DNA of 64,000 nucleotides from positions 620,001-684,000 of the forward strand of contig NZ_SWBO01000001.1 of the NCBI RefSeq assembly GCF_005116475.1. Direction: 5' to 3'. Each line of letters begins with the position of its first letter. The stretch's first letter is position 1. Below are positions 2,899 to 62,851 of this stretch, piece after piece. Source of the stretch: Pedobacter cryotolerans (lineage in GTDB: Bacteria; Bacteroidota; Bacteroidia; Sphingobacteriales; Sphingobacteriaceae). The translations under genes were made by a program, and so were the position numbers. The notes under the pieces are model-generated. The model had not been told where the DNA came from and made no database searches. It saw only the letters and a list, made by a program, of their open reading frames with translations.

Positions 2899-3067
2899 GT
2901 TCCAATTTAACAAAATTCTTAAGAAAAGAGAAGATTATGTTTAACTATACAATTTTATGATTGTTTTAGACGCTTGGTGTATTGGTTTTTAGAAAAACAA
3001 TGTAAATGGTTTTTGGCGAATGTAGCCCCGCCATACGCTACAAATTTTGTTTACTGGTCTTCGACTA

Positions 3068-3195
3068 CCTGCCTACCGCAGGCACAATCATTAAGTTAAG
3101 CGTTGGCGGGGACGCCAACGCTGGAAGTTTCTTATGTTGGCGTCCCCGCCAACGTGTTAATTTTTCTTAACTTAAGGACATTATCCGCAGGCAGG
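3068..3195. mobile_element. Miniature inverted-repeat element nested in another repeat
   Basis: This 128-bp unit begins CCTGCCTACCG and ends with the reverse complement of CCTGCCTGCGG. Inside it, TTAAGTTAAG (3091-3100) pairs with CTTAACTTAA (3166-3175), and GTTGGCGGGGACGCCAAC (3102-3119) pairs exactly with its complement at 3136-3153. The left flank ends CTTCGACTA and the right flank starts CGCTCAGACTGACA. Joined, they reproduce the uninterrupted repeat seen at 43634-43655. No target duplication and no transposase is visible, so non-autonomous mobility is an inference. Confidence 0.55.
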
Positions 3196-3446
3196 CGCTC
3201 AGACTGACACGTCACAAAATTTTCCGCTGCTGTCGGGTTTATATTACAAAGTGTGTGGTTCTTGGCGGTTTGCAGCACTAAATAGTAGCAAACAACTGCG
3301 TTGCTAAACCTGCCTGCCCAGCAAGCAGGCGGGATGGGAATGAAAATTCTTTTTGTTTTTTCTTTAGCTTTTACCACTTTAGTAGCGTATTAGAAAGAAA
3401 GTTGTAACGCTTAAAAACAAAAAGCTTCCTTTCTACGGTCAATGGT

Positions 3447-3532
3447 TAAACTTAGCGTTGGCGGGGACGCCAACTCAGGAGTTTTTCTCATTTTGGCGTC
3501 CTCGCCAACATTTTAATCATTCTTAGCTTAAT
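3447..3532. repeat. Second copy of the GTTGGCGGGGACGCCAAC inverted-repeat unit
   Basis: The 18-nt core recurs exactly at 3457-3474 and its partner at 3492-3509 has two changes. The flanking AT-rich arms resemble those of the copy at 3091-3175, but the CCTGCCT ends are missing. The inner stem-loop may therefore be a separate unit from the outer ends of the first copy. It lies just downstream of rlmN. Confidence 0.6.
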
Positions 3533-3570
3533 AATTGCCCTGCGGTGTGCTGGAAGATTACGCTGGCAAA

Positions 3571-4626
3571 TTAGTTATCAGCAGATTCTTTAACCGCTAA
3601 CTGACCACAAGCTGCATCAATATCTTTTCCTCGGCTTCGCCTGATGTTGGTATTTACACCATGGTTACGTAAGTATGTTGCAAAAGCATCAATTTTATCT
3701 CCTTCGGCATTAATAAAATCAGCAAATTGTATGGGGTTGTATTCGATTAGGTTTACTTTGCAAGGTACGTGTTTGCTAAATTTAACCAAATCCATGGCGT
3801 CTTCAATTTCATCATTAAAGCCATTAAATACAATGTATTCGTAGGTTACTGGGTTTTTGGTTTTTTGGAAATAGTATTTTAAAGCTTCGGCCAATGCCTT
3901 TAAAGAGTTGTGCTCGGTTATTGGCATAATTTCGTGGCGTTTGGTGTCATTAGCAGCATGTAACGACAGTGCTAAATTAAACTTTGCGCCATCATCGCCT
4001 AGCTTTTTGATCATTTTAGCAATACCGGCTGTAGAAACGGTAATGCGTTTGTACGACATGTTTAACCCATCTGGAGCTGTAATTCTTTCGATAGACTTCA
4101 TCATGTTTGCATAGTTAAGCAAAGGTTCGCCCATGCCCATGTAAACTATATTTGTAAGCGGAATATTGTAATTTTTTTTGGCTTGCTGATCAATTAAAAC
4201 AACTTGATCGTAAATTTCATCGGCATTTAAGTTACGTTTACGATCCATGTAGCCCGTAGCACAAAATTTGCAGGTTAAGCTGCAACCCACTTGCGAACTT
4301 ACACAAGCTGTCATGCGTTCTTCAGTAGGTATTAAAACACCTTCTACAATATTGCCATCATGTAAGCGGAAAGCATTTTTGATGGTATGATCGTTACTAA
4401 ATTGAGCACTATTAATTTCAACAACGTTGATGGTATAGTTTTCATCTAATTTTTTACGCAAATCTTTAGATAGATTACTCATCTCCTCAAAACTGCGGGC
4501 AGATTTTTCCCAAAGCCATTGATAAACTTGTTTTGCTCTATATGCAGGTTCCTTCATTTCGCTAAAATGTTGCTGCAATTGAGACAAATCTAATGAACGG
4601 ATATCTATTTTTTTGGTGTTGATCAT
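3571..4626 (-). CDS. rlmN: Dual-specificity RNA methyltransferase RlmN
   Basis: RlmN is a radical-SAM enzyme that methylates C2 of A2503 in 23S rRNA and A37 of some tRNAs. The 351-residue protein has the CxxxCxxC cluster motif at Cys115, Cys119 and Cys122 (CSLTCKFC), the following GYMDRKRNL region, the MGMGEPLLN motif, and the C-terminal Cys340 (DAACGQL) expected as the methyl-carrying cysteine. The N-terminal accessory domain (residues 1-90) is present. The ATG at 4626 lies 1 nt from the end of the upstream toxin frame if that frame were intact, so rlmN may be transcribed from the toxin-antitoxin promoter. Confidence 0.97.
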   Translation of the reverse strand: MINTKKIDIRSLDLSQLQQHFSEMKEPAYRAKQVYQWLWEKSARSFEEMSNLSKDLRKKLDENYTINVVEINSAQFSNDHTIKNAFRLHDGNIVEGVLIPTEERMTACVSSQVGCSLTCKFCATGYMDRKRNLNADEIYDQVVLIDQQAKKNYNIPLTNIVYMGMGEPLLNYANMMKSIERITAPDGLNMSYKRITVSTAGIAKMIKKLGDDGAKFNLALSLHAANDTKRHEIMPITEHNSLKALAEALKYYFQKTKNPVTYEYIVFNGFNDEIEDAMDLVKFSKHVPCKVNLIEYNPIQFADFINAEGDKIDAFATYLRNHGVNTNIRRSRGKDIDAACGQLAVKESADN

Positions 4627-12242: not shown

Positions 12243-12272
12243 GTTATGATATAAGAATTAATTTTTGGGAAA

Positions 12273-12581
12273 TTATTCTACTGGTTTACCTTCTGCGTCA
12301 AATTTTAAAGAACCTACTTGTTCTTCTTTTTTAACATCAACTTGGTAATACATTTTGTCTCCATCTTTAACGCTAAACGCTGCAGTTGGTGTCCAAGTAG
12401 CATAAGGCTCAACCTTTAAAATGTCGGTAATAGGTTTAGGTAGTTCTTCTAATTTAATAGGTGTTTTAACTACACTGTCTTGTACTGTAACAACTTGGTT
12501 AACGTTTTTTACTTCTGAAGCTTGCGCTGTTGCAAATCCTGCGAATGCTAAAAATGCAGCTGATAAAATTAACTTTTTCAT
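12273..12581 (-). CDS. Small secreted protein, tandem paralogue 1
   Basis: A 102-residue product with a clear signal peptide (MKKLILSAAFLAFAGFATAQA, cleavage around residue 21). The mature part reads KLEELPKPITDILKVEPYATWTPTAAF and then VKDGDKMYYQVDVKK and LKFDAEGKPVE. The LPKPI...Y...FDAEGKP pattern resembles PepSY-like periplasmic proteins of Bacteroidetes, but I regard that as a weak match. It is nearly identical to the next gene upstream apart from residues ~22-38. No function is known to me. Confidence 0.75.
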   Translation of the reverse strand: MKKLILSAAFLAFAGFATAQASEVKNVNQVVTVQDSVVKTPIKLEELPKPITDILKVEPYATWTPTAAFSVKDGDKMYYQVDVKKEEQVGSLKFDAEGKPVE

Positions 12582-12656
12582 AATATGATTTTTTTAGTGT
12601 TGCATTAAAAGCAACTTTAAAATTTAATTGATTGAGCTTTTAGAAATGTGTACTAA

Positions 12657-12968
12657 TTATTCTACTGGTTTACCTTCTGCGTCAAATTTTAAAGAACCTA
12701 CTTGTTCTTCTTTTTTAACGTCAACTTGATAATACATTTTTTCTCCATCTTTAACACTAAATGCAGCAGTTGGTGTCCATGTAGCATAAGGTCCAACTTT
12801 TAAAATATCTGCAATTGGTTTTGGTAATTCTTCCAATTTGATTGGCGTTTTAACCACGCTATCTTGAACTGATGTGATTTCGATATTTTTAATTTTAGAA
12901 TCTGAAGCCTGTGCTGTTGTGAAACCTGCGAATGCTAAAAACGCAGCTGATAAAATTAATTTTTTCAT
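12657..12968 (-). CDS. Small secreted protein, tandem paralogue 2
   Basis: This 103-residue protein is the second member of a tandem pair. It shares almost the whole signal peptide and the mature C-terminal two-thirds with the product of 12273-12581, and diverges mainly at residues 22-36 just after signal cleavage (SDSKIKNIEITSVQDS against SEVKNVNQVVTVQDS). The same strand and a 75-nt gap suggest a recent duplication. A PepSY-like fold is possible. The upstream region up to 13184 is shared with the divergent amidohydrolase gene and holds an inverted repeat at 13107-13123. Confidence 0.75.
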   Translation of the reverse strand: MKKLILSAAFLAFAGFTTAQASDSKIKNIEITSVQDSVVKTPIKLEELPKPIADILKVGPYATWTPTAAFSVKDGEKMYYQVDVKKEEQVGSLKFDAEGKPVE

Positions 12969-13106
12969 AATGTATAATTTTTAAATTTTATTTGTGAAAC
13001 TATACTAGCCTATAGTACATAATGATGCCAAGGCATGCCAAAACATTTAAATCACTGATATTTAATATATTGCGTTTAATTGTTGAGTATGATAGTTGTA
13101 GAGATG

Positions 13107-16778: not shown

Positions 16779-16814
16779 CTTATAAATTGTTTGATTGTTT
16801 GATTGTTGGGATTG

Positions 16815-16850
16815 ATCTCACATCTCACATCTCAATACTCAAATCTAAGA
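16815..16850 (+). repeat. CT-rich dispersed repeat directly before the flippase start
   Basis: The stretch is built from the unit ATCTCAC repeated with variation, followed by AATACTCAAATCTAA. It ends exactly at the ATG at 16851. Similar stretches occur at 18336-18369, 62336-62374, 48901-48928 and, inverted, 60431-60466. Confidence 0.7.
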
Positions 16851-18332
16851 ATGTCTGTATATAAAAAATTTCTGGGGCAAACGGCAGTATATGGTTTAAG
16901 CACCGTATTTTCTAGGCTATTCAATTTTATTTTAACCCCAATTTATACTTCGGTTTACCAAAAAGGGGTGTATGGTATATTTACGAATATGTATGCCAAT
17001 GCTTCACTGATCAATGCAGTTTTGGCATTTGGTATGGAAAGTACTTATTTTAGATACCTCAATAAATTTGAAGATAAAAAGCAAGAGGTTTACAACAACT
17101 CATTTTTGTGCATCGCCTTTGTCTCAACTTTGTTTTTGGCAACAGGGTTGATTTTTTCTACATCCATTGCAACTTATTTAGCTACAGATGTTTCTGAAAT
17201 AGCCGATTATAAACAATATGTAAGCTTCTTTTTATGGATTTTATACATTGATGCAATTTGTGTAATTCCTTTTGCAAAACTGCGTGCCGATGGTAGACCA
17301 TTTAAATATAGTGTAGCCAAATTTTTAAATATTGGATGTTTTGTTGGCTTTAATCTGCTATTTATTTATGTTGTTCCAGCTATCATTAAAAACGATTGGT
17401 TAGGCGCTTCATGGTTTTCGTCATGGTACCGCTTCCAGTGGATTGGTTATGTTTTTTTATCAAACCTAATTGCTAGTGTTGCTACATTTATTTATCTATT
17501 GCCAGAGTTTTTAAAACTGCAGCTAAAATTTGACAGCAAGCTATTCAAAAATATGTTTGGCTACAGTTGGCCAATTTTAGTTGCTAATTTATCTTTTATC
17601 ATTAATGAGAATTTAGATAAAATTGTACTCAAAAAGTTATTACCAGATGATATTGCAGATGGAGAAGTAGGTATTTATGGGGCAGTTTGTAAAATCGCAA
17701 TTTTCTTGAGCATTTTTATAACCGCATTTAGATTGGGTGCCGAACCGTTTTTCTTCAGCCATGCGAAACAAGAAAATGCAAAACAAACTTACGCCACAAT
17801 TTTAAAGTACTTTGTAATTGCTTTGGCTATTCTTTTTGTTGGCATAATTGCCAATATCGAATTGTTAAAATATTTTATCCAAAAAGAAGAATATTGGGTG
17901 GGCTTACCAGCAGTGCCTTATTTACTATTAGGGTATGTTTGTTTGGGCATTTATATGAATTTATCTATTTGGTATCGCTTATCAGATCAAACCAAATTTG
18001 GCTTGTATATTTCGGTAACAGGAGCTGTAATTACAATTGTTTTAAACTTAGTTTTAATTCCTAAGTACAGTTATATGGGCTCGGCTTGGGTAAGTATGCT
18101 AGCCTATTTTGTAATGATGGTATTATCATATGTTTTAGGTCAAAAACATTACCCAATACCTTATAACCTAAAAAAAATATCGATTTATTTAATCATTTCT
18201 ACAGCGATTGTTTTCTCTTCATTTTTTCTCTTTAATCGAAATATCTACATCGGTAATGCCTTGTTAATTGCTTTTGTTGCTGGAGTTGCTTATTTTGAAA
18301 AAAATGATTTAAGGAAAATGCTAAAACGATAA
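16851..18332 (+). CDS. Oligosaccharide flippase family protein (Wzx/MOP superfamily)
   Basis: A 493-residue polytopic membrane protein with about 12-14 hydrophobic segments. The start [36 protein letters not shown] is typical of polysaccharide exporters (glycine/serine-rich first helix, then PIYT). It would flip lipid-linked oligosaccharides across the inner membrane. The ATG at 16851 is preferred over 16803, because the extra residues would come from the CT-rich repeat. No glycosyltransferases lie next to it, so the substrate is unknown. dut follows on the same strand after another repeat copy. Confidence 0.88.
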
Positions 18333-18335
18333 ATT

Positions 18336-18369
18336 TCTCAAATCTCACATCACAATACTCATATCTAAA
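18336..18369 (+). repeat. CT-rich dispersed repeat directly before dut
   Basis: A copy of the repeat seen at 16815 (TCTCAAATCTCACATCACAA, then TACTCATATCTAAA), again ending at the start codon, here the ATG at 18370. Confidence 0.7.
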
Positions 18370-18801
18370 ATGAATATCAAAATCATCAACCATTCTACGC
18401 ATCCTTTACCAGCTTACGAAACTGCTCATGCAGCGGGTATGGATTTAAGAGCTTTTACGCCAGAGCAAATAACAATTAAACCATTGCAACGTTTATTGGT
18501 TCCAACTGGTTTGCATATCGAGTTACCAATTGGTTACGAAGCACAAATTAGACCGCGTAGTGGATTGGCATTTAAGCATGGGATTGGTATTGTTAATTCT
18601 CCAGGCACAATTGATGCCGATTATAGAGGGGAGATTAAGGTATTATTGGTAAATTTATCTGATACCGAATTTGTAATTAATGATGGAGATCGAATTGCAC
18701 AAATGGTAATTGCAAAACACGAAACGATTAGCTGGGATAGTGTTGATGAATTAAGTGATACTGCTCGTGGAGCAGGTGGCTATGGGCACACTGGCAAATA
18801 A
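18370..18801 (+). CDS. dut: dUTP diphosphatase
   Basis: This trimeric enzyme splits dUTP to dUMP and pyrophosphate, keeping uracil out of DNA and feeding thymidylate synthesis. All five family motifs are present in 143 residues: [39 protein letters not shown] and [12 protein letters not shown] at the C-terminus. It lies between the flippase and a TPR protein on the same strand. Confidence 0.97.
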
Positions 18802-43510: not shown

Positions 43511-43578
43511 ACGATGGAATTCTGCTCCCTTGGAGGGGTGCCCAATGTCCTTAAGTTAAGGAGAAAATAAAAAGTAAT

Positions 43579-43656
43579 TGTCATCCTGAGCGTAGTCGAA
43601 GGACAAATTATTTTTTTTTGACCATTGAAAGATCTTCGACTACGCTCAGACTGACA
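43579..43656. repeat. CTGAGCGTAGTCGAAG inverted repeat
   Basis: The 16-nt arm at 43586-43601 pairs exactly with 43634-43649, with TGTCA ends outside. The right arm is the uninterrupted form of the sequence split by the element at 3068-3195. Confidence 0.75.
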
Positions 43657-43874
43657 GCGTTTGTATTTAACTAAAGGATTGTAGGATGCCCGACGCGGCG
43701 AGCGGGGTGGTTAATCTATAGTTTGTAAGTAAAAAAAAGCTTTAACCTACACAATCTTTATTAGTTGTTTCAAACTTTGGCAATCCAAAACAGGATTTAC
43801 AAAGTGGAAATGGATCCTGTTAAAAAGTAGCAAGCACTATGTTTCTATGTGGTAAATTATCTTAATTAAATCCT

Positions 43875-48868: not shown

Positions 48869-48900
48869 ATCGAAACATTCGTTATGGATCTATTCTACTA

Positions 48901-48928
48901 TCTCACAACTCAATACGCATATCTAAAA
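48901..48928 (+). repeat. CT-rich dispersed repeat after the M28 gene
   Basis: TCTCACAACTCAATACGCAT then ATCTAAAA resembles the repeats before the flippase, dut and osmC genes, but here it lies just past the 3' end of a minus-strand gene. Confidence 0.55.
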
Positions 48929-48929
48929 A

Positions 48930-50555
48930 CTAATTAGTTTTAGGCGTACCATCCTCATTTTTGTTCACAACTGGACGATTTGCGCCATTAGCTAATTCCC
49001 ATGCTGTAAAATATACCAACTGTGCTCTTTTAGCTAACATAGGGAAATCAATTTTGCTCACTTCATCTCCTGGTTGGTGGTAATCTTTATGTACACCATT
49101 AAAATAGAAAATTACAGGAATACCGAACTTGGCGAAGTTATAGTGATCTGAACGGTAATAGAATTGGTTTGGATCAGTACGGTTGTTATATTTTTCGTCT
49201 AAAACAATGTTTACATAATCTTCATTTGCTTTTTTTCCAATACGATCTAAATCATCGCTAAGCATGTTAGATCCAATAATATAAACGAAGTTATTATCGC
49301 CTGGACGGTCATCATCACCACGTCCAATCATGTCGATATTTAAATTTGTGATAGTGTTCTCAATTGAGAAAATTGGATGCTCTGCATACCATTCAGAACC
49401 CAATAGGCCTTTTTCTTCTCCAACAACGGTCATAAATAAAACACTTCTTTTTGGGCCTTTACCAGCTTTTGCAGCCTTAGCGAATGCCTCTGCTAGCATT
49501 AAAACTCCTGTAGTACCAGAACCATCGTCATCTGCACCATTGTTAACTTTATCTGTAGCATTAGGGTCTGCAACTAAACCAATATGGTCATAGTGACTTG
49601 TAACTACTAAAACTTCATTTTTAAGTATAGGATCAGAACCTTCTAAAAAGCCTAAAACATTTTCGCCACGGTGAGTAGTTTCTTTTTTCTGAGCTGCAAC
49701 CATTAAAGCTGTATTTGCAGTAATTGAAGCTGGTTTACCGCTTTCTTTAATTTTTTGAGCCAATGCTTCAACAGTTGTATTGCTAGTTTTTAAAATTTCG
49801 TTAGCAGTTGCTGGAGAAATTGTTAAAGTTGTTAAAGTTGGTCTGGCAGGAGCTGCGGTTGCAGGGGCATCTTTTTTCAACATGATTCTGCCAGATGCAG
49901 CTGCAATTTTAGCATATTCTGGCATTTTATCAAAGTTCATATCAACCAAAAGAATAGCTTTAGGTTTAGCTTTCATTAAAGTTGTCATCATTTTTTGTCT
50001 GGCCATCATAGCCGCTCTACCGGTTAACTCAGGCTCGCCTGCTTTAATAGTTGGGTCTCCAGCAGAAAAAATCATGATTACTTTGCCCTCTGCATTAATG
50101 CCAGCAAAATCATCATAACCGTCTTTGGTAAGTCCGTAACCAGCAAAAATCACTTCATTTACGTTAATAGCAATAGGAGCGTTGGCTACACTATTACTTG
50201 GTATCATGAAATCGGCATTTAACTTTCTAGCTTTGCCATTAACTGCTAATGAAGCGCCAGCAACATCATTAGTAATTAACCCAACATTTTGAAAGTATTT
50301 ATCTTTACCATCTTTAACTGGGCCTTTTAAACCAAAGCTTTTAAACTGTTTTTTGATATATTCAGCAGCCATCCAAGCGCCTTTTTTGCCTGTTTCTCTA
50401 CCTTCATATTCATCAGAAGCTAAAACAGATAGGTGACTAAATCCTCTATCTTTAGTAATGGTTTCGCTAAATTTTATGGCGTCAGAGTTTTTCTGAGCCG
50501 ATGCACCAACACTTAGCAATATAGCTAAGCCAGTGTATAGAAATGTTTTTTTCAT
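48930..50555 (-). CDS. Secreted M28-family zinc peptidase with PA-like insert
   Basis: 541 residues: signal peptide (MKKTFLYTGLAILLSVGASAQ), a protease-associated-like domain (~120-290) and the M28 catalytic part with HYDH at 321-324, NGADDDGSGTTG (339-350), the catalytic Glu pair GEEKG (380-383), NIDMIGRGDDD and the final zinc His in YYRSDHYNFAKFGIP. All ligands of the two-zinc site appear to be present, so it is probably an active aminopeptidase or carboxypeptidase in the periplasm or outside the cell. It is monocistronic by its own terminator. Confidence 0.93.
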   Translation of the reverse strand: MKKTFLYTGLAILLSVGASAQKNSDAIKFSETITKDRGFSHLSVLASDEYEGRETGKKGAWMAAEYIKKQFKSFGLKGPVKDGKDKYFQNVGLITNDVAGASLAVNGKARKLNADFMIPSNSVANAPIAINVNEVIFAGYGLTKDGYDDFAGINAEGKVIMIFSAGDPTIKAGEPELTGRAAMMARQKMMTTLMKAKPKAILLVDMNFDKMPEYAKIAAASGRIMLKKDAPATAAPARPTLTTLTISPATANEILKTSNTTVEALAQKIKESGKPASITANTALMVAAQKKETTHRGENVLGFLEGSDPILKNEVLVVTSHYDHIGLVADPNATDKVNNGADDDGSGTTGVLMLAEAFAKAAKAGKGPKRSVLFMTVVGEEKGLLGSEWYAEHPIFSIENTITNLNIDMIGRGDDDRPGDNNFVYIIGSNMLSDDLDRIGKKANEDYVNIVLDEKYNNRTDPNQFYYRSDHYNFAKFGIPVIFYFNGVHKDYHQPGDEVSKIDFPMLAKRAQLVYFTAWELANGANRPVVNKNEDGTPKTN

Positions 50556-60394: not shown

Positions 60395-60430
60395 GCTTTT
60401 TTGATAGAATTTAGCGCAAATTAACGAATA

Positions 60431-60466
60431 GATGTGAGATATGAGAAATGAGATTTGAGAAATGAG
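60431..60466 (-). repeat. CT-rich dispersed repeat upstream of pdxA (inverted)
   Basis: Read on the minus strand it is a run of TCTCATTTCTCA / TCTCAAATCTCA units, the same kind of sequence as at 16815, 18336 and 62336, about 40 nt upstream of the pdxA start. Confidence 0.6.
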
Positions 60467-60547
60467 TCTTGGTAGCTTTCCTAATGAGATTGGTTTGGCT
60501 GCTTAATCGCTAAACGCTAACCCCTAAACTCTACCCTTAAAAATACT

Positions 60548-62279: not shown

Positions 62280-62335
62280 TTCTTAAATTGCTCCTAACAA
62301 ATATAAGCTATTTGAGTGTTAGACTATGGGCTGTG

Positions 62336-62374
62336 TCTCAAATCTCACATCTCAATACTCAAATCTAATAAAGT
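62336..62374 (+). repeat. CT-rich dispersed repeat directly before the OsmC gene
   Basis: TCTCAAATCTCACATCTCAA, then TACTCAAATCTAATAAAGT, ends exactly at the ATG at 62375. It is almost identical to the copy at 16815-16850. Confidence 0.7.
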
Positions 62375-62851
62375 ATGGCAAAAGAACATCAATATAAAAC
62401 CAATTTGGTTTGGGCGGGCAATAAAGGCTCTGGTACAATGGATTATCGTTCTTACGATAGAGATTTTGTAGTTTCCATAGCAAATAAAGAACCGATTTCT
62501 GGTTCGTCTGATTCTATTTTTTTAGGTGATAAAACTAAATACAATCCCGAAGATTTGTTATTGGCATCGGTATCTTCTTGCCACATGCTTTGGTATTTGC
62601 ATTTGTGCTCTAAACATGAAATTGTGGTGATGGAATACAAAGACAATGCAGTTGGTACAATGGTAGAAAACACGGACGGAAGTGGGCAGTTTTCTTCAAT
62701 TTTATTACAACCTGAAGTGCTGATTTCTAAAAAAGAACAGATTGAACTTGCCAATACCTTACATGAGGAAGCTAATAAAATGTGTTTTATTGCTAATTCG
62801 TTAAATTTTCCGGTTAAGCATGAGCCAAATTGTTATGCCATAAACGCGTAA
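62375..62851 (+). CDS. OsmC family protein
   Basis: A 158-residue OsmC/Ohr-fold protein, typically a thiol-dependent peroxidase for organic peroxides or a redox protein. The first family Cys is in LLLASVSSCHMLWYLHLC and the second in ANKMCFIANSLNFPV. The N-terminal strand layout (HQYKTNLVWAGNKGSGTMDYRSYDRDF) is also typical. The start lies immediately after a CT-rich dispersed repeat. Confidence 0.88.
   Translation: MAKEHQYKTNLVWAGNKGSGTMDYRSYDRDFVVSIANKEPISGSSDSIFLGDKTKYNPEDLLLASVSSCHMLWYLHLCSKHEIVVMEYKDNAVGTMVENTDGSGQFSSILLQPEVLISKKEQIELANTLHEEANKMCFIANSLNFPVKHEPNCYAINA

Follow-up and report, generated by a model that had tools for sequence, protein, structure and literature searches.

The 99-bp element between comF and rlmN of Pedobacter cryotolerans is very probably a MITE whose parent insertion sequence (IS) belongs to the IS4 family (subgroup IS4); it was inserted with a 10-bp duplication into a hairpin (M) that lies within a repeat (O) within a longer repeat (R). 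The MITE explanation was reached from the duplication length, the identical ends, an empty paralogue, insertions into M in both orientations, and IS partners with the same duplication length. Through their identical ends and the length of their duplication, the orphan MITEs of this Pedobacter genome can be assigned to a named family of transposases, and the nest gives a clean relative chronology of stacked repeats.

Structure of the nested repeats

The window, which is the whole stretch of 64,000 nucleotides analysed here, belongs to a 4.25-Mb draft assembly in 32 contigs. Four nested repeat layers were found in the 675-bp gap between comF and rlmN, just downstream of rlmN, in the nesting order R > O > M > MITE (Table 1). 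Uninterrupted O is the CTTCGACTACGCTCAG repeat, and M is a 19-bp hairpin. As the initial annotation had described, O is split with 128 bp (3068-3195) between its halves, the uninterrupted form is present at 43634-43656, and a second palindrome is present inside the insert. The uninterrupted form lies in a type-B MITE, and the palindrome consists of two inner hairpins that are exact inverted copies (19 nt, 100%). The further copy of the inner palindrome without CCTGCCT is also present, about 250 bp on. Chance does not account for these repeats: the pattern CTTCGACTANNCT had 120 matches in the genome versus 0 for the reversed control, the 128-bp region with its flanks had 73 matches in the genome, and the GTTGGCG palindrome was found 4 times in the window versus 0.01 expected. 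When folded as single-stranded DNA, 3028-3245 gave a stem-within-stem fold (-48.7 kcal/mol, z -6.5) in which O pairing was weak, and the fold of 3058-3202 had a z of -8.1.

Table 1. Positions of the genes and repeat layers in the window
Feature	Position	Strand	Basis
comF	2200-2898	minus	name read from sequence
rlmN	3571-4626	minus	name read from sequence
R, longer dispersed intergenic repeat enclosing all other layers	3007-3266		homologous parts 3007-3084 + 3196-3266; 90% identity over 153 columns to L023
O, left half CTTCGACTA	3059-3067	plus	continuous O pattern, 120 matches genome-wide
O, right half CGCTCAGACTGACA	3196-3209	plus	comparison with paralogue
M, left part: CCTGCCT + first copy of the 10-bp duplication (3075-3084, ACCGCAGGCA)	3068-3084	plus	intact M at the same position in other O copies
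M, right part: second copy of the duplication (3184-3193, TCCGCAGGCA, 1 mismatch) + GG	3184-3195	plus	comparison with paralogue
Type-A MITE, 99 bp; left end 3085-3100 (CAATCATTAAGTTAAG, decayed), right end 3166-3183 (CTTAACTTAAGGACATTA)	3085-3183	plus	10-bp duplications, 18 copies in the same genome
MITE, first inner hairpin (CGTTGGCGGGGACGCCAACG)	3101-3120	plus	sequence comparison
MITE, second inner hairpin, inverted copy of the first	3136-3154	minus	sequence comparison
Type-A MITE copy, older and decayed, outside M and O; ends CAATGGTTAAACTTAG / CTTAGCTTAATAATTG; duplication blurred	3440-3537	plus	
Type-B MITE, decayed; same ends, right end much changed; inverted O pair inside	43543-43681		
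O pair within the type-B MITE	43586-43601; 43634-43649	minus; plus	

Other repeats were also observed in the window. A dispersed intergenic TCTCACATCTCAATACTCAAATCTA-like repeat occurs in at least five places (16807-16857, 18327-18377, 48885-48935, 62327-62377, and 60429-60479 on the minus strand). Two tandem duplications with a period of approximately 385 bp are 86-89% identical (12271-12487/12655-12871 and 12514-12596/12901-12983), and the tandem duplications of 12271-12983 are apparently small paralogous genes.

Ends and target duplication of the MITE

The copies in this genome have common 18-bp ends with the consensus CAATGTCATTAAGTTAAG / CTTAACTTAATGACATTG. In total, 21 end pairs located 60-260 bp apart were collected, and 18 were scored for duplication; L015, L067, and L119 were left out for their decayed ends, with L119 being chance-like. 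The flank identity of the 18 copies was 0.87 at 10 bp versus 0.14-0.29 at 5-9 and 11-16 bp, and 0.43 at 4 bp. For L001 (the copy at 3085-3183) and L004, which are both among these 18, the duplication was already visible when the ends were placed. Identity of at least 80% at 10 bp was observed in 14 of the 18 copies. The duplication of the window copy contains 1 mismatch, and its left end contains 3 mismatches. The type-A elements of this genome are 99-104 bp long and carry no transposase; they are short, non-coding, and multicopy, with IS ends and a duplication, as MITEs are. Type-A copies with 10-bp duplications were also found in a second genome (G033).

An IS of a kind found in other Pedobacter genomes, but not here, would have provided the transposase in trans. 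This transposase may bind the 18-bp ends, excise the element, and join it to the target with a 10-bp stagger, which repair would turn into the 10-bp duplication. The target would have been the loop and one arm of the pre-existing hairpin M in O in R, and the order would be R and O, then M, and then the MITE. By analogy with the IS4 family, the chemistry of the MITE is presumably cut-and-paste.

Order of the layers

The locus L023 (contig C29), which emerged when the joined flanks of the window copy were compared to four further loci, holds R, O, and M (with one extra base) without the MITE, and is 90% identical over 153 columns. This paralogue is the empty site for which the initial annotation had proposed to search. 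O without M accounts for most of the 120 genome matches, and O with M but no MITE also occurs in this genome. Since both forms exist, the MITE is the youngest layer. A second nest of O, M, and MITE is located on contig C28 (L003/L007). M is also dispersed independently at 28 distinct places (counted from 46 match rows), some of which are in R-type repeats and not in O. Neither a lack of intact empty sites nor a chance match of the flanks, the two objections named by the initial annotation, refuted its reading. Its view of mobile, non-autonomous repeats nested in a legible order was borne out, with the MITE as the youngest layer and with an empty paralogue. M itself may have reached O by transposition.

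M likely entered O, as opposed to having been lost from the other O copies. It carries no target duplication, and the O copies that have M and those that lack it could be variants of a single repeat. It is possible, without being the favoured reading, that both O and M belong to the REPs, that transposases of the Y1 (RAYT) type mobilised them, and that M came into O in that way. This genome has four Y1_Tnp matches, and M is preceded by CTA at most of its sites, with no duplication; in O and several R-type repeats, it is also followed by C. Single-strand insertion beside a short motif would give such a placement. However, some M sites follow bases other than CTA, and neither O nor M was found within about 1.5 kb of any of the four Y1 genes, so that the Y1 gene flanked by the repeat, as expected of RAYT/GTAG REPs, was seen at 0 of 4 loci within the 1.5 kb scanned. 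Moreover, the RAYT route concerns only the older layers and not the MITE. Of the Y1 loci, L112, L113, and L114 (G000:C12, C1, and C32) encode larger, RAYT-sized Y1_Tnp proteins of 184-207 aa, with none of the studied repeats within about 1.5 kb. L111 (G000:C23, ~440493-440831) is a 145-aa Y1 (IS200-like) gene beside a tandem array, in which a unit of approximately 24 residues (QLKQTAINKADCNEQTDGNEQIHK) is repeated several times in frame.

A match to rlmN was found in 143 genomes, and 30 loci were fetched, one of which was the genome studied here, leaving 29 relatives. comF adjoins rlmN in 20 of the 29, in some at low identity. No orthologous empty site with R, O, and M was found among the 29 relatives, in which the whole block is missing. 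The RNA fold of the MITE is very stable (-52 kcal/mol, z -8.7), and the MITE lies just downstream of rlmN. This would suit a nested hairpin retained because it serves the rlmN-comF interval, for instance by terminating transcription or stabilising mRNA, with mobility being secondary. We consider this function improbable, because the type-A hairpin, M, and O (within 3 mismatches) were absent from the fetched rlmN region in all 29 relatives and copies occur at many unrelated places of the genome. An O-like GGTCTTCGACAAGCTCAG in the comF-rlmN gap of two genomes (G098 and G016) was taken up as a candidate empty site; it was suggestive only and was not counted. In the same gap of G077 (L210), an O-like repeat is split by another O-like hairpin, with an M-like CCTGCCTGTCGGACAGGCAGG nearby, and here hairpin nesting has arisen independently at the orthologous gap.

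Repeated insertion into M

The initial annotation took the whole 128-bp block with CCTGCCT ends as the inserted unit. The mobile part is the inner 99 bp, and M is older and separate. CCTGCCT represents the arms of M and not transposon ends, because M without the MITE occupies the identical place in other O copies. A single 128-bp mobile element composed of M and the MITE, which entered O whole, would account for the fact that this arrangement is seen four times in different surroundings (L001, L002, L003, and L006). Nevertheless, it is very improbable and has been largely refuted: M lacking the MITE is found in R-type repeats as well as at the corresponding position within O, the MITE alone is found outside M with its own 10-bp duplications, and M received the MITE in both orientations. 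The MITE is at the identical base of M in all four loci, and the M-located copies do not form a clade: L001 shares 96% identity with L004, a copy outside M, and 95% with L002 and L003.

Of the 18 insertions, 4 are in M; when M is taken to total 475 bp, the chance of this is approximately 5e-13 for the whole genome, or 5e-9 if one tenth of it is available. When only the two events demanded by the orientations are counted, the chance is 2e-6 (whole genome) or 2e-4 (one tenth).

Partner insertion sequences

No cognate transposase was found in the P. cryotolerans genome (0/1), where the best match had an E value of 0.05 to a short stretch, and no IS was found at contig ends of the draft (49 of the 64 ends). 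The partner was therefore assigned across species. A relic can do without a resident transposase, and only a draft of this genome was searched; the transposase was presumably once present in this genome. The transposase with matching ends that the initial annotation had suggested looking for was found in relatives, in IS4-family ISs, by a search with PF01609 across 59 genomes and end scans of 30 loci.

Three ISs (L158, L183, and L163) have the ends CAATGCTATTAAGTTAAG, and a fourth (L182) has the ends CAATGTCATTTAGTTAAG. Each of the four has an exact 10-bp duplication and ends with 1-2 mismatches from the MITE consensus. The transposase of L182 had matches in 13 of the 145 genomes of the genus. 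G144 contains three IS copies, two of which (L187 and L199) have both ends identical to the MITE consensus (18/18). The duplications of L199 and L192 are exact over 10 bp, and those of L195 and L204 have 1 and 2 mismatches, respectively; none was found in the IS copies L186, L187, and L188. Overall, clean ends with a duplication were present in 12 of the 27 related loci (4 known copies and 8 new), and all duplications were 10 bp.

The terminal pattern of the IS4 subgroup, -AATR--------WTW----, is found in CAATGTCATTAAGTTAAG, with AATG at 2-5 and TTA at 14-16. The 10-bp duplication of every cleanly duplicated IS copy is within the subgroup range of 10-13 bp, and the Y(2)R(3)E(6)K motif is present in the partner transposases (YFKRWAIETYYNRFK). 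D122, D198, and E306 are invariant in a four-sequence alignment, with spacers of 75 and 107 that fit D(60-110)D(100-150)E; from this spacing, D122 and D198 are putative catalytic residues. The NCBIfam model NF033592 (IS4) was matched with 125 and 151.5 bits, both passing the cut-off of 115, and the Pfam model PF01609 was matched by L158 above its cut-off and by L182 below it. The IS length is 1391-1477 bp in the Pedobacter copies and 1387-1795 bp in the relatives, compared with 1400-1650 bp for subgroup IS4.

Target choice for palindromes

The palindromes were first noticed at the first IS sites, and therefore the later sites served as the test; an earlier form of the hairpin test took in the sites that had prompted the idea. 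A perfect stem of at least 6, centred within 6 bases of the duplication centre, was found at 4 of 8 independent IS sites, and a stem of at least 8 at 3 of 8. The background was 4.7% and 0.4%, respectively, for all positions (37,370), and 10.1% and 1.6% for ORF-free positions in the same loci (2,764). The p values for the IS preference were 0.0002 and 0.0017, which are approximate because background positions overlap. At L265 and L280, the duplication lies exactly at the centre of a 24-bp dyad. At the first 8 IS sites, the same stem lengths were found in 5/8 and 2/8.

The MITE sites of this genome gave 4/15 (p = 0.006; 0.05 versus ORF-free positions), with three of the 15 being M sites, and the MITE sites of G033 gave 0/4, which was not significant. 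No symmetric dyad beyond the duplication was seen in the average over 27 sites centred on the duplication, which did not include L062 (a member of the 18-copy duplication count). The preference was visible only in the free-centre hairpin test, strong for the ISs and weak for the MITEs. At least three dispersed-repeat matches were found for 8 of 17 MITE targets versus 18 of 43 intergenic controls of the window, a comparison that is non-discriminating with a database of loci fetched for repeats. The single MITE targets that can be named as repeats are M, the O-like repeat of L011, and the pairs L004/L012 and L036/L098. The MITE of subgroup IS4 probably came to be nested in hairpin repeats through a preference of its transposase for palindromes.

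Hairpin cargoes between the same ends

The same ends enclose three hairpin cargoes. Type A has GTTGGCG hairpins. Type B has inverted O pairs, which are intact in L062 and L064, shortened in L071, and decayed in the element at 43543-43681 of the window. Type C has inverted GTCATTGCGAGG-type pairs (L036, L096, L098, and L100). Because three hairpin cargoes lie between the same ends and the IS targets are centred on palindromes, it is possible, though less likely than not, that IS4-subgroup elements of Bacteroidota seek palindromes and that, by way of MITEs with inverted CGTC-type REP pairs, they are one of the borrowed transposases that spread REPs otherwise lacking a transposase, building hairpins within hairpins. 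This spreading is weakened as the main route because O mostly lies outside such elements: among 30 O loci inspected out of the 120, none has MITE ends on both sides, and ends on one side were found in 4/30.

Two short type-B-like loci, L067 (G000:C1:96011-96081) and L071 (G000:C23:410302-410411), carry M between two O left halves (TGAGCG-M-CGCTCA). Deletion between inverted O copies would give this symmetric form. L134 (G000:C27:354215-354622) is a head-to-tail O array of four copies in the same orientation with a spacing of ~125-135 bp.

Comparison with known systems

Searches of the open-access literature on MITEs, REPs, and IS4 in Pedobacter/Bacteroidetes found no description of this MITE family, and nothing related was retrieved with the sequences of O and similar repeats. 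According to the available text of De Palmenaer et al. (2008, PMC2266710), subgroup IS4 has ends of the pattern given above, duplications of 10-13 bp, and a transposase of a single ORF with Y(2)R(3)E(6)K, in elements of ~1.4 kb. The partners share the ends, the 10-bp duplication, the YREK motif, and the single ORF with that subgroup, whereas the element in the window has only 99 bp and is a derivative without coding capacity. The partners differ in occurring in Bacteroidota, a word absent from the available text of that paper, and some are slightly under or over its size range.

In the description by Di Nocera et al. (2013, PMC3733652), CGTC-tagged REPs have a CGTC/TGTC tag and an 8-9 bp stem starting with AT, form inverted dimers within palindromes, and have no dedicated transposase. 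Judged by that text description, O (TGTC-ATCCTGAG..CGAAGGA) and cargo C (CGTC-ATTGCGAGG..) resemble tagged inverted-pair hairpins and are candidate members: the tag, the AT start, and the inverted pairs are seen, with a GA/AG mismatch in the stem. Unlike those REP dimers, some inverted pairs here lie between IS4-type ends that are flanked by 10-bp duplications, and IS4 ends with a CGTC-type REP dimer as cargo are possibly new. If the REP cargo is mobile, it would be a testable answer to how CGTC REPs spread without a dedicated transposase.

ISRm22 of Sinorhizobium, an IS4-family element of subgroup IS4Sa, is described with all copies in palindromic repeats (Tobes and Pareja 2006, PMC1525189). 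As with ISRm22, an IS4-family element is seen here landing in palindromic repeats; unlike ISRm22, it is a MITE that targets palindromes, and the ISs prefer palindromes without one fixed sequence. IS4-subgroup elements show palindrome target choice, and a MITE nested in hairpin repeats fits the known behaviour of the IS4 subgroup and of elements that target REPs.
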